Below, in pieces: positions 27,724 through 34,564 of a stretch of 64,000 nucleotides of DNA. Under the pieces are notes generated by a model. That model had not been told where the DNA came from. It saw only the letters and a program-made list of their open reading frames with translations, and searched no databases. The DNA is from an uncultured Actinomycetes bacterium (GTDB lineage: Bacteria > Actinomycetota > Actinomycetes > Nanopelagicales > Nanopelagicaceae). The stretch's first letter is position 1, and every line of letters begins with the position of its first letter. Both the position numbers and the translations under genes were made by a program. The stretch is taken from positions 1 to 64,000 of the forward strand of contig CAITVX010000018.1 of assembly GCA_903895995.1 (NCBI GenBank). The letters run 5' to 3'.

Positions 27724-29409
27724 ATGAGCAGCGATAAGAAGACTCTTAAGCCACGTTCTGCACTTGTGACTGATGGATTAGAACGCGCCCCTGCACGTGG
27801 AATGTTGCGCGCTGTTGGAATGAAAGATGAAGATTTCAAGAAGCCTCAGATCGGAATCGCATCGTCTTGGAATGAGATCACTCCATGCAACCTCTCACTT
27901 GATCGCTTAGCTAAAGCATCGCGTAAAGGTGTTATCGAAGCTGGCGGATTCCCAATGCAGTTCGGAACAATCTCCGTCTCTGATGGAATCTCCATGGGCC
28001 ACGAAGGTATGCACTTCTCACTTGTCTCACGTGAAGTCATTGCTGATTCGGTTGAGACCGTTATGCAAGCAGAGCGCCTTGATGGCATGGTCACTTTTGC
28101 AGGTTGCGATAAATCTCTTCCTGGAATGATGATGGCAGCAGCGCGTATCGATGTTGCAAGCGTCTTTGTCTACGCAGGTTCCACACTTGCAGGCCAAGTT
28201 GATGGCCGCGATGTAACAATTATTGATGCCTTTGAAGCAGTCGGTGCTTGCGCACGTGGACTTATCTCTCAAGAGAAGGTCGATGAGATCGAACGTGCAA
28301 TCTGCCCAGGTGAAGGTGCATGTGGCGGTATGTATACGGCAAACACCATGGCAGCAGTGGGCGAGGCGATTGGATTATCACTCCCAGGTTCTGCATCTCC
28401 AGCAGCGGTTGATCGCCGTCGCGATGACTACGCAGTTCAATCTGGTGCAGCCGTTGTCGAACTTATTCGCAAGGGAATTACCACACGCGACATTCTCACC
28501 AAAAAAGCCTTTGAGAATGCAATCACAGTAGTGATGGCACTTGGCGGATCCACCAATGCCGTGCTTCATATTCTTGCCATCGCTAATGAAGCAGAAGTCG
28601 AATTAAACCTTGAAGATTTCCAACGAATCAGCGAGCGCACACCACTTCTTGGCGATCTCAAGCCATTTGGTAAGTACGTCATGACTGATATCGATCGCGT
28701 CGGCGGCATCCCCGTTGTTCTACGTGCTCTACTTGATGCTGGTTTCTTGCATGGAGATGTCCTCACTGTTACTGGTAAAACTATGGCTGAGAACCTTGCA
28801 GATATCGCTCCACTTGATCCAGATGGAGATGTCTTGCACGCAATTAAGAGCCCACTCTCTGCTGGTGGAGGAATAACAATTCTTGGTGGATCACTCGCTC
28901 CTGAAGGTGCGGTGTGCAAAACTGCCGGAGTTGGTGTCAATAACTTTGAAGGACCTGCTCGCGTATTTGAACGCGAACAAGCAGCGATGGAAGCTCTTGA
29001 GAATGGAACCATCCAAGCTGGCGATGTCATTGTTATTCGTTACGAAGGCCCAAAGGGTGGACCTGGAATGCGCGAGATGTTGATGATCACTGGCGCAATC
29101 AAAGGTGCTGGACTTGGTAAATCCACATTACTTCTTACAGATGGTCGCTTCTCTGGAGGATCAACTGGTCTCTGCGTTGGTCACGTTGCACCTGAAGCTG
29201 TTGACGGTGGACCGATTGCATTTGTCGAAGATGGAGATATCGTTCGCGTAGATATTGCTGCTCGTACATTAGATCTCTTGGTCGAAGAGAGTGTGATGGC
29301 AGAACGTCGTAAGCATTTCTCACCAGTGCCTCATAAATATAAGAGGGGCGTTCTCGCCAAGTATGCGAAGGTGGTTGGCAGCGCTTCACACGGCGCTGTA
29401 ACTAGCTAA
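27724..29409 (+). CDS. ilvD: Dihydroxy-acid dehydratase
   Basis: A 561-residue Fe-S enzyme that dehydrates dihydroxy acids to the keto acids of valine and isoleucine. Cluster ligand regions are [10 protein letters not shown] and [16 protein letters not shown], and [15 protein letters not shown] is a C-terminal signature. GAAGGAG precedes the ATG. It follows gatB closely but is separated from ilvB by a 254-bp regulatory region. A 17-bp sequence spanning its last codons and stop is repeated just downstream. Confidence 0.96.
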
Positions 29410-29443
29410 AGCGCCACGAGTAAAAAGCGCTGTAACTAGCTAA
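29393..29443. repeat. 17-bp direct repeat at the ilvD stop codon
   Basis: GCGCTGTAACTAGCTAA occurs at 29393-29409, ending on the ilvD stop, and again at 29427-29443. The first copy can also form a small stem (GGCGCT with AGCGCC, 29392-29415). This looks like a local duplication of the gene end. Confidence 0.85.
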
Positions 29444-29493
29444 GGTGCTAGCCCTAGGGACCCTCTCGAATAATGAGATCTGCATCTCAGGGG

Positions 29494-29522
29494 TTGACTA
29501 CCCTCGATCGGTAGGCGAGAAT
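29494..29522 (+). promoter_or_regulatory. Promoter of the ilvB leader
   Basis: TTGACT (29494-29499) and GAGAAT (29517-29522) are 17 bases apart. The -10 box ends six bases before the leader-peptide ATG, so the transcript may begin on that ATG. Confidence 0.6.
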
Positions 29523-29528
29523 TAGAGC

Positions 29529-29567
29529 ATGAAGTCATCAGTGGTGATTCGAGAGCGCGCGATCTAG
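29529..29567 (+). CDS. ilvB leader peptide (attenuator), 12 residues
   Basis: The short frame reads MKSSVVIRERAI and then stops at TAG. Three of its twelve residues (Val5, Val6, Ile7), with Ile12 at the end, are products of the pathway encoded downstream. It sits between a promoter and a terminator hairpin ahead of acetolactate synthase, the layout of transcription attenuation by ribosome stalling. It has no Shine-Dalgarno site and the ATG falls at the predicted start site, so translation would be leaderless. The function is inferred. Confidence 0.6.
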   Translation: MKSSVVIRERAI

Positions 29568-29586
29568 TCTGACTAGAACGTGCGCT
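29554..29586 (+). promoter_or_regulatory. Pause-type hairpin of the ilvB attenuator
   Basis: A 15-position stem, with one mismatch and one G-U pair, surrounds a three-base loop, with CTAGT (29564-29568) against ACTAG (29572-29576) at its tip. It covers the last codons and stop of the leader peptide, where a 1:2 pause hairpin is expected. I could not assign a convincing antiterminator pairing. Confidence 0.5.
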
Positions 29587-29617
29587 ACCCCTCAGTGGAA
29601 AAACTGAGGGGTTTCTC
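29587..29617 (+). terminator. Attenuator terminator upstream of ilvB
   Basis: ACCCCTCAGT (29587-29596) pairs with ACTGAGGGGT (29603-29612) around GGAAAA and runs into TTTCTCATTT. It lies 20 bases past the leader-peptide stop and 47 before ilvB, so it acts upstream of the structural genes. Confidence 0.85.
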
Positions 29618-29663
29618 ATTTACCGACTGATTTATAGCTGGATACTCGCGAAAGGAGTTGAAC

Positions 29664-31403
29664 ATGAGTGAAGAATTTACAGGGGCACAATCCCTCGTCA
29701 AATCTTTAGAGCATGCTGGCGTTGATGTCATGTTCGGCATCCCTGGCGGTGCGATTCTTCCTGCCTACGATCCAATCTTCGATTCAAAGATTCGCCACAT
29801 ACTTGTTCGCCATGAACAAGGAGCTGGTCATGCAGCAACTGGTTATGCGCAAGCAACAGGTCGCGTCGGAGTCTGTATCGCGACATCTGGCCCTGGTGCA
29901 ACAAACCTTGTTACCCCACTCGCAGATGCCCAGATGGACTCAGTCCCTATCGTTGCAATTACTGGCCAAGTTGCATCCGCTGCGATCGGAACAGATGCAT
30001 TCCAAGAGGCAGATATCCGTGGAATCACAATGCCGGTGACAAAGCACAACTTCCTTGTTACTGATGCTAAAGATATCGCTCGTGCAATCGCTGAGGCATT
30101 TCATATCGCAGAGACTGGCCGCCCTGGCGCAGTTCTCGTTGACATCGCAAAAGATGCGTTGCAGAACAAATCTACATTTGATTATCCATCGAATATCAAA
30201 CTAGCTGGCTATAACCCAGTTCTGAATCCAACTGCTCAGGCACTGCGTGATGCAGCTGTACTCATCACTGAATCTTCCTCACCAGTTCTCTATGTTGGCG
30301 GCGGAGTTATTAAGTCCAACTCGTATAAAGAGCTCATGGAACTTGCCGAACTTACTGGCGCTCCTGTTGTTACGACTTTGATGGCACTTGGTTCATTCCC
30401 AGATAGCCACCCACAACATCTTGGTATGCCTGGAATGCACGGAACTGTTGCTGCAGTAACTGCGCTCCAGAAGGCTGACTTACTTATCACCCTTGGTGCA
30501 CGTTTCGATGACCGCGTAACTGGAAAGCTCTCAACATTCGCACCGAATGCAAAGATCATTCACGCTGATATTGACCCTGCTGAAATTGGTAAGAACCGTA
30601 GCGTTGACGTTGCGCTCCTTGGCGATCTCAAGAACAGCATGAAGGGTCTTATCCCTGAGCTGAAGGCTGCTTACAAGAAGACTAAGCCTGATCTCACAGG
30701 CTGGTGGAAGACCGTCAACCAGTGGCGTGCTCAATATCCGCTCGGTTTCGATGAACCAACTGATGGTTCACTCTCACCTCAATATGTGATTCAACGCCTT
30801 GGACAGATCGCTGGCCCTGATGCAATCTATGTTGCAGGTGTTGGTCAACATCAGATGTGGGCATCACAATTTGTTAACTATGAGAAGCCACGTACATGGC
30901 TGAACTCAGGTGGTTTAGGAACAATGGGTTACGCAGTTCCTGCCGCAATGGGAGCAAAGGTTGGCGCTCCAGATAAGGTCGTTTGGGCGATCGATGGTGA
31001 TGGTTGCTTCCAGATGACAAACCAAGAGCTCGTTACATGTGCGCTGAACAATATTCCTATCAAGGTTGCGATCATTAATAATGAATCACTCGGAATGGTT
31101 CGCCAATGGCAGACCCTTTTCTACAACGAGCGCTATTCAAATACTGAACTTCATTCAAAGCGTATTCCTGACTTCGCGAAGCTTGGCGAGGCTATGGGTT
31201 GCGTTGGACTTCGCGCTGAGCGCAAAGAAGATGTTGATCGCGTTATCAATGAAGCGATGGCAATCAATGATCGTCCGGTCGTTGTTGATTTCTCAGTGCA
31301 CCGTGATGCGATGGTATGGCCAATGGTCGCTGCTGGTGCATCGAATGATCTCATCACCGTCGCGCACTCGATGGCGCCTGTCTGGGATTCACAGGAGCTC
31401 TAA
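29664..31403 (+). CDS. ilvB: Acetolactate synthase large subunit
   Basis: A 579-residue ThDP enzyme for the first common step of valine, leucine and isoleucine synthesis. [12 protein letters not shown] and the catalytic-Glu segment [15 protein letters not shown] are N-terminal; the ThDP/Mg motif runs from [12 protein letters not shown] to NN. I prefer the ATG at 29664, seven bases after AAAGGAG; a TTG at 29658 overlaps that ribosome site. It is preceded by an attenuator and coupled to ilvN (TAATG). Confidence 0.96.
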
Positions 31404-31906
31404 TGTCACAGAACCATACGCTCTCAGTCCTCGTTGAAAATAGCCCCGGAGTTCTTGCGCGCATTGCCTCACTCTTCTCACGTCGCGGCTACAACATCGA
31501 TTCACTCGCTGTTGGACCAACCGAGAACCCTGATATCTCGCGCATGACAATCGTCATCGATGTAGAGGGCCATGCCCTCGAACAAGTGATTGCTCAACTT
31601 GATAAGTTGATCAATGTCATCTCGATTACCGAGCTAGATCCTGTGACTTCTGTTCAACGCGAACTCTTGCTCGTCAAGGTGGCAACGACTGCAGAGAATC
31701 GCTCTCAGGTCCTTGAAACCGTTCAATTATTCCGTGCCAAGGTTGTCGACGTCGCACAAGATGCCGTAACAATTGAAGCAACCGGAAATGCCGAGAAGAT
31801 TCAGGCGCTCCTACGAGTACTTGAGCCTTATGGCATTAAGGAATTAGTCCAATCTGGTCTCGTCGCAATGGAGCGCGGACTACGACTGACTCAGAAGTTC
31901 AATTAA
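31403..31906 (+). CDS. ilvN: Acetolactate synthase small (regulatory) subunit
   Basis: A 167-residue regulatory partner of IlvB. The N-terminal ACT domain (LSVLVENSPGVLARIASLFS, about 5-80) senses branched-chain amino acids, typically valine; the C-terminal half (about 85-165) is the ALS_ss_C domain. Its start overlaps the ilvB stop by one base. Confidence 0.96.
   Translation: MSQNHTLSVLVENSPGVLARIASLFSRRGYNIDSLAVGPTENPDISRMTIVIDVEGHALEQVIAQLDKLINVISITELDPVTSVQRELLLVKVATTAENRSQVLETVQLFRAKVVDVAQDAVTIEATGNAEKIQALLRVLEPYGIKELVQSGLVAMERGLRLTQKFN

Positions 31907-34564
<2,658 letters not shown>

Follow-up and report, generated by a model that had tools for sequence, protein, structure and literature searches.

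Attenuators of the enterobacterial ilvB/ilvG, trp and his type combine ribosome stalling at control codons with an intrinsic terminator. In actinobacteria, leader peptides have been described in front of ilvB, and several of these begin at or close to the 5′ end of the message. In Corynebacterium glutamicum, the IlvL start lies one nucleotide from the ATG (PMC11857589, citing Morbach et al.), and Morbach et al. refer in their title to a leader peptide formed in the absence of a ribosome binding site. Mutational analysis in the same species identified the hairpin at 36–78 as an antiterminator with 3 nt in common with the base of the terminator, and expression fell by 80% when the leader ATG was lost (PMC11857589). 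Transcription of the C. diphtheriae ilvB leader peptide likewise starts at the ATG (PMC5784534), and the ilvL of Streptomyces lividans, MRTRILVLGKRVG, is transcribed leaderless (PMC8079986). In S. coelicolor, changing candidate codons upstream of ilvB left regulation unaffected (PMC1262725), so control-codon logic should not be assumed in every actinobacterium. The role of a hairpin next to a terminator has also been viewed differently, with one study proposing that adjacent hairpins promote, and do not oppose, termination (PMC8355165).

Here, we describe the region in front of ilvB in a 64,000-nt stretch of DNA (the window). It is part of a genome of 1.36 Mb (G000:C18), and the closest relatives of its ilvB come from Nanopelagicales. 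These are acI-like freshwater actinobacteria with genomes of roughly 1–2 Mb. Among the top literature matches, no paper linked Nanopelagicales with attenuation or leader peptides, although such a case may already have been described elsewhere.

The ilvB leader region and its promoter

The genes ilvD, ilvB, ilvN, ilvC, serA, leuB and ilvE follow in this order on one strand, the plus strand to which all window coordinates below refer, and all score above the NCBIfam cut-offs. The attenuator sits in the 255-nt gap between ilvD (27724–29409) and ilvB. The first controlled gene, ilvB (29664–31403; NF005860 and TIGR00118), encodes the large subunit of acetolactate synthase and has its own Shine–Dalgarno sequence, AGGAG (29653–29657), in front of the ATG at 29664. 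It is followed by ilvN for the small subunit (31403–31906; TIGR00119), ilvC for ketol-acid reductoisomerase (31940–32974; TIGR00465), and then serA, leuB and ilvE (TIGR01327, NF002898 and TIGR01123), which reach to 36702. As a separate observation, the 3′ end of ilvD, including its stop codon, is duplicated once, the copies being spaced by 34 nt, in three related species whose sequences differ (window 29393–29448, L002:1211–1270 and L005:1209–1260).

The promoter in this gap comprises a −35 box, TTGACT (29494–29499; TTGAC in 46 of 46 loci, with the search pattern TTGA[CA]), a 17-nt spacer, and a −10 box, GAGAAT (29517–29522), recognized from the sequence and from relatives. A leader frame of 12 codons, MKSSVVIRERAI (29529–29567), contains the adjacent putative control codons Val-Val-Ile (GTG GTG ATT; 29541–29549). 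Frames rich in branched-chain amino acid (BCAA) codons occur in all relatives, and a run of at least two Val, Ile or Leu codons in nearly all leaders. The stop codon of the frame falls inside the 5′ arm of a candidate antiterminating hairpin, H1 (29554–29586), in which an outer helix pairs 29554–29561 with 29579–29586 and an inner helix pairs 29563–29567 with 29573–29577. Flush with H1 stands an intrinsic terminator stem-loop of 10 pairs, T (29587–29612), whose stem ends in GGGGT and runs into the T-rich tail TTCTCATTT (29613–29621), as in relatives. Folding of 29529–29625 gave −46.1 kcal/mol, compared with −24.4 in dinucleotide shuffles (z = −6.8; 0 of 200). An earlier note on this DNA had read the same elements from the letters, namely TTGACT, 17 bases and GAGAAT, the −10 box ending six bases ahead of the ATG, a 12-residue frame with adjacent Val-Val-Ile codons, a hairpin over its stop, and a terminator before ilvB; all of them are present, and both stems appear in the computed fold. 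The tail deserves a remark of its own. In the window and in relatives it keeps the pattern TTTC-N-CATTT or TTTTT-N-CATT, with no plain T run, and this may be a lineage-specific pause or termination feature.

To judge where the message begins, we relied on the spacing between promoter and frame. A −10 box that ends 6 nt before the ATG places the expected start at the A of the ATG (29529), and no Shine–Dalgarno 4-mer precedes the leader ATG in the window. The distance from the first T of TTGAC to the A of the ATG was 35 nt in 35 loci and 36 nt in 11, together all 46 Nanopelagicales loci whose upstream DNA was long enough, in a search that accepted 32–38 nt; a few of these loci represent one genome in two collections (e.g., L014/L052 and L024/L042), making the independent count slightly lower. 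The analysis covered 1.35 Mb of the genome, nearly its full length, and its first 646 kb served for both the leaderless statistics and the terminator scan. Among 571 long ORFs with their candidate ATGs in these 646 kb, TANNNT ended exactly 6 nt before the ATG in 87 cases and 7 nt before it in 27, whereas each other distance accounted for about 7. By this spacing, around 100 of the 571 ORFs look leaderless. The Streptomyces loci that we fetched carry the frame MRTRILVLG(K/Q)RVG with an identical promoter-to-ATG geometry; because they share the S. lividans IlvL frame and spacing, they act as a positive control for the use of spacing as a sign of leaderlessness.

A leaderless leader frame is strongly supported by these comparisons and has a high likelihood. 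The apparently leaderless leader peptide of the earlier note is thereby supported, with the 5′ end deduced from the constant 35–36-nt spacing and the genome-wide peak at 6–7 nt. Its opinion that leaderless sensing would be unusual as a mechanism finds no support in view of that same peak and the published C. glutamicum, C. diphtheriae and S. lividans cases: a −10 box 6–7 nt ahead of the ATG is a common way for genes to start in this genome. Transcription could instead begin farther upstream, for example by readthrough from ilvD, giving a leadered message that carries the frame. Since ilvD, on the same strand, ends no more than 120 nt upstream, some readthrough is possible; an SD-like 4-mer is also found at −14 to −4 in 15 of 46 loci, including a GGAG that overlaps the −10 box in L044 (TGGAGAAT). 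However, the −10-to-ATG spacing is invariant across loci with unrelated spacers, and the genome-wide TANNNT peak and the absence of such a 4-mer from the window leader also speak against a leadered frame, which we regard as highly improbable.

The promoter may be subject to control of its own. Two overlapping inverted repeats, TCTCGAATAATGAGA (29464–29478) and TGAGATCTGCATCTCA (29474–29489), end 4 nt before the −35 box. One or both of these operator-like repeats, with the patterns TCTCR-N5-YGAGA and TGAGAN-N4-NTCTCA, were present in 42 of 46 Nanopelagicales loci, against a shuffle rate of 0.0016. Elsewhere in this genome, leuC and a divergently oriented IclR-family gene are separated by a region with a 15-bp palindrome of the same type, TCTCGCATTCCGAGA (L136:6642–6656). 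This gene is the only IclR_C match in the genome and has the synteny of ndgR/ltbR; the published motif for comparison is KTYCRSMWYSYGRRM. The pattern suggests NdgR/LtbR-like promoter control in addition to attenuation.

Conservation of the leader across the family

The upstream regions of ilvB in relatives contain the same parts in the same order. A covariance model of H1 and T (R1) matched 133 of 151 family genomes, nearly always in a single copy, and weakly matched 22 of 118 genomes of the class, with three of the class-level matches (G043, G047 and G049) located directly 5′ of ilvB. In a structure-guided alignment with 47 distinct rows (A3), 15 of the 23 base pairs of H1 and T showed changes on both sides, comprising 10 of the 13 pairs of H1 and 5 of the 10 pairs of T. 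There were 37 double-change cells compared with 8.8 in shuffled data, and none of 500 shuffles reached 37. Since A3 was fitted to the model, it leans towards the model; 93.8% of its cells are paired, and this value fell to 23–49% when the partners were slid by 1–3 columns. A3 was used in place of a MAFFT alignment (A1), which misplaced short-stem terminators and gave only modest covariation, and a further alignment (A2) was left out because it contained antisense hits. In two leaders (L037 and L043), an Arg codon, CGC, has become Leu CTC and its pairing partner in H1 has changed in step, so that H1 pairing was kept at the expense of the peptide tail.

We found no second set of promoter, leaderless short frame and intrinsic terminator on either strand of 646 kb of the genome itself. 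A search of this genome for TTGAC-(20-22)-A...T-6-ATG gave chance-level matches only, with a pattern that excludes the window's −10 box as aligned. Rfam yielded no match at gathering score in the window, and 29450–29680 gave chance matches only, at E up to 10; a riboswitch or other curated RNA was ruled out on this basis. Likewise, a chance origin was ruled out by the single site in 646 kb, the matches in 133 of 151 genomes and the covariation. The earlier note had made its case depend on the frame and both stems being kept in relatives, and they are conserved family-wide. The element is a real, standing feature of the family.

Ribosome position, H1 and the terminator

Which part of the leader is held in place relative to H1 can be read from 35 distinct leaders. 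H1 starts 7 nt past the last control codon in 23 of them and 3–8 nt past it in all 35. The standard deviation of the distance to the H1 start was 1.3 nt from the last BCAA codon, 6.0 nt from the stop codon and 15.0 nt from the ATG; H1 was sought downstream of the last BCAA codon, and for most leaders a broader search gave the same picture. The shortest frame has 9 residues and the longest 29, and the position of the stop codon varies between 15 nt within H1 and 4 nt ahead of it. The remainder of the peptide and its length vary, but the BCAA codons are retained as a run. The leaders of L044, L045, L046 and L053 stop right after the control codons (among them MSTTFVVVI, MFTTVVVVI and MSKALVVVVI, each directly followed by the stop codon), which places the stop ahead of H1; they are natural variants in which stop and H1 are uncoupled.

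In line with established toeprint geometry, we took the ribosome footprint to extend as far as 14 nt past the first P-site base. For the window, this means that a ribosome starved at Val5 reaches leader nt 24 and leaves H1 (nt 26–58) whole, one at Val6 frays two H1 pairs, and one past Ile7 reaches nt 33 and so covers precisely nt 26–33, the 5′ strand of the outer helix. Such behaviour is expected of a switch that the ribosome sets through H1.

We think it likely that the region is a ribosome-mediated transcription attenuator of ilvBNC, with a sensor peptide read from a leaderless message and H1 serving as an antiterminator that is flush with T without sharing pairs with it. RNA polymerase would start at the A of the leader ATG, as the conserved spacing indicates, and a 70S ribosome would load on the 5′-terminal AUG, as in known leaderless initiation in Actinobacteria. 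With too little charged Val or Ile tRNA available, it would stall at GTG-GTG-ATT with its footprint ending at or just inside the H1 base, and H1 would form. A ribosome beyond the last control codon would cover the outer helix of H1 (29554–29561), leaving T to fold and transcription to stop before ilvB. The direction of this response follows from physiology: ilvB is needed when Val or Ile is short, so H1 should antagonize T. The ribosome-stalling layout that the earlier note proposed gains support from the conservation of codons, H1, T and spacing through the family.

How H1 could act on T is suggested by their junction. The distance from the 3′ end of H1 to the first base of T was −3 to +1 nt in 35 of 35 leaders, with 0 in 20 and an overlap of 1–3 nt in 14, and in a wider folding frame the gap was 0–1 nt in 32 of 36. 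In the window's genus, H1 and T share no base pair and coexist without conflict in nearest-neighbour folding, and the argument for a block is therefore a steric one. For termination, the lowest pairs of the stem have to close within the RNA exit channel. The strand leaving the 5′ base of T would be a rigid duplex without a linker, and the channel could hardly hold both; H1 may therefore exclude T by space, probably by preventing T from zipping its basal pairs in the exit channel. In some relatives, a true H1/T overlap of 1–3 nt would aid this exclusion. A more specific proposal, in which an antiterminating hairpin shares no base pair with its terminator, the two exclude each other by space, and a leaderless ribosome reads a fixed codon–hairpin ruler, is offered tentatively, as a possibility that is open to real doubt.

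Other readings of H1 have to be weighed against abutment. In a classical enterobacterial-type switch, H1 would be the 1:2 pause and anti-antiterminator hairpin, and a separate 2:3 antiterminator, formed by the 3′ arm of H1 or the leader with the 5′ arm of T, would arise on stalling. The parts list is the same, with control codons, a hairpin over the stop and a terminator, and weak pairings can be drawn in single species, such as a 3-bp GAG:CUC extension in L010 or a 4-bp CUAC:GUGG hairpin of about −2.2 kcal/mol in the window. However, no alternative pairing recurs between species, and neither masked folding at several ribosome positions nor a duplex test against shuffled arms found a 2:3-type antiterminator. 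With the ribosome at the first control codon, the leader paired with the 5′ arm of T at a mean of −3.25 kcal/mol, compared with −5.01 for shuffled arms (35 distinct leaders), and the free leader paired with the 3′ arm at −4.21, compared with −6.47 (duplex scoring, 35 leaders), while T itself averages about −16 kcal/mol. We consider a classical switch quite improbable. With no leader pairing to the arms of T that beats shuffles, abutment or overlap at the edge is the probable means by which H1 opposes T. The earlier note had found the antiterminator pairing not obvious, which still holds, and it was reasonable to suggest a possible departure from the enterobacterial mechanism, given the lack of a 2:3-type antiterminator in these searches and a geometry that fits a hairpin abutting the terminator base. 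Pairing of the H1 loop with the 3′ arm of T, as proposed for ilvB-II, was rejected, with no loop complement seen by eye in the window's genus and a negative 3′-arm duplex test.

Alternatively, H1 could act only as a pause and synchronization hairpin, with ribosome position alone deciding the outcome, or H1 and T could form a tandem terminator, with the operator-like repeats at the promoter exerting most of the regulation. In favour of such readings, the H1 base would lie about 11 nt behind the polymerase while the 5′ arm of T is made. Promoter control is consistent with the conserved repeat abutting the promoter and with the S. coelicolor codon changes that had no effect (PMC1262725), and a tandem terminator with hairpin clusters proposed, in the same study as above, to terminate (PMC8355165). 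Yet these readings leave unexplained why the distance from the last codon to H1 is constant (SD 1.3, vs. 6.0 for the stop codon) and why the BCAA run persists in peptides that otherwise change in sequence and length, and they seem unlikely to us. There is also counter-evidence to H1 as the antiterminator of a ribosome-mediated switch: a bare two-hairpin model without a ribosome predicts H1 by default and hence high expression, whereas loss of the leader ATG in C. glutamicum lowers expression. Coupling effects or a different 5′ region could explain this discrepancy.

Comparison with described attenuators

The window attenuator belongs to the known actinobacterial ilvB leader-peptide attenuators, and a response to branched-chain amino acids is predicted from its sequence. 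By the type criteria of Seliverstov 2005, a run of Ile, Val or Leu codons stands in a short frame 5′ of ilvB in the window and in all Nanopelagicales loci with data, and an intrinsic terminator with a U-rich tail lies between this frame and ilvB. Ribosome-mediated ilvB attenuation with a leaderless sensor would thus extend to the Nanopelagicales. The many natural variants in this order offer clean comparative evidence on the role of the upstream hairpin, which was left open in Streptomyces and is debated in Corynebacterium. The fixed codon–H1 distance, the drifting stop codon and the flush H1–T junction make the question testable.

Enterobacterial attenuators differ in having a leader with a Shine–Dalgarno sequence and a 2:3 antiterminator that shares terminator bases, neither of which was found in the window. 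Mycobacterium ilvB1NC resembles the window in its BCAA-coding upstream frame (LVVI), its terminator, and the ribosome stalling and antiterminator proposed for it; unlike here, the proposal invokes switching between terminator and antiterminator. Streptomyces ilvL, upstream of ilvBHC, has a leaderless frame with Ile, Leu and Val codons, as is highly likely here, and shares the terminator before ilvB and the promoter-to-ATG geometry; however, its leader is longer, and in the fetched loci the hairpin mostly stands 6–10 nt off the terminator and is not flush with it.

A close likeness is to Corynebacterium ilvBNC (IlvL; the ilvB-II motif), which has a leaderless or nearly leaderless BCAA-rich frame, comparable to the one predicted here, together with a hairpin ending at the terminator base, an intrinsic terminator and the same start of the operon. 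By arithmetic on the published positions, the Corynebacterium antiterminator starts 10 nt past the last Val codon, compared with 7 nt in the window, and it overlaps the terminator base by 3 nt, whereas the window's genus shows an overlap of 0 and the family a junction ranging from −3 to +1. The leader sequence differs, and an extra 5′ anti-antiterminator hairpin has been proposed for Corynebacterium; in the window, no such hairpin over the start codon appears in the minimum-energy fold, in which the first 14 nt are unpaired. The form in the window can be read as the C. glutamicum arrangement in which the shared edge has shrunk to nothing and the additional 5′ hairpin is missing.
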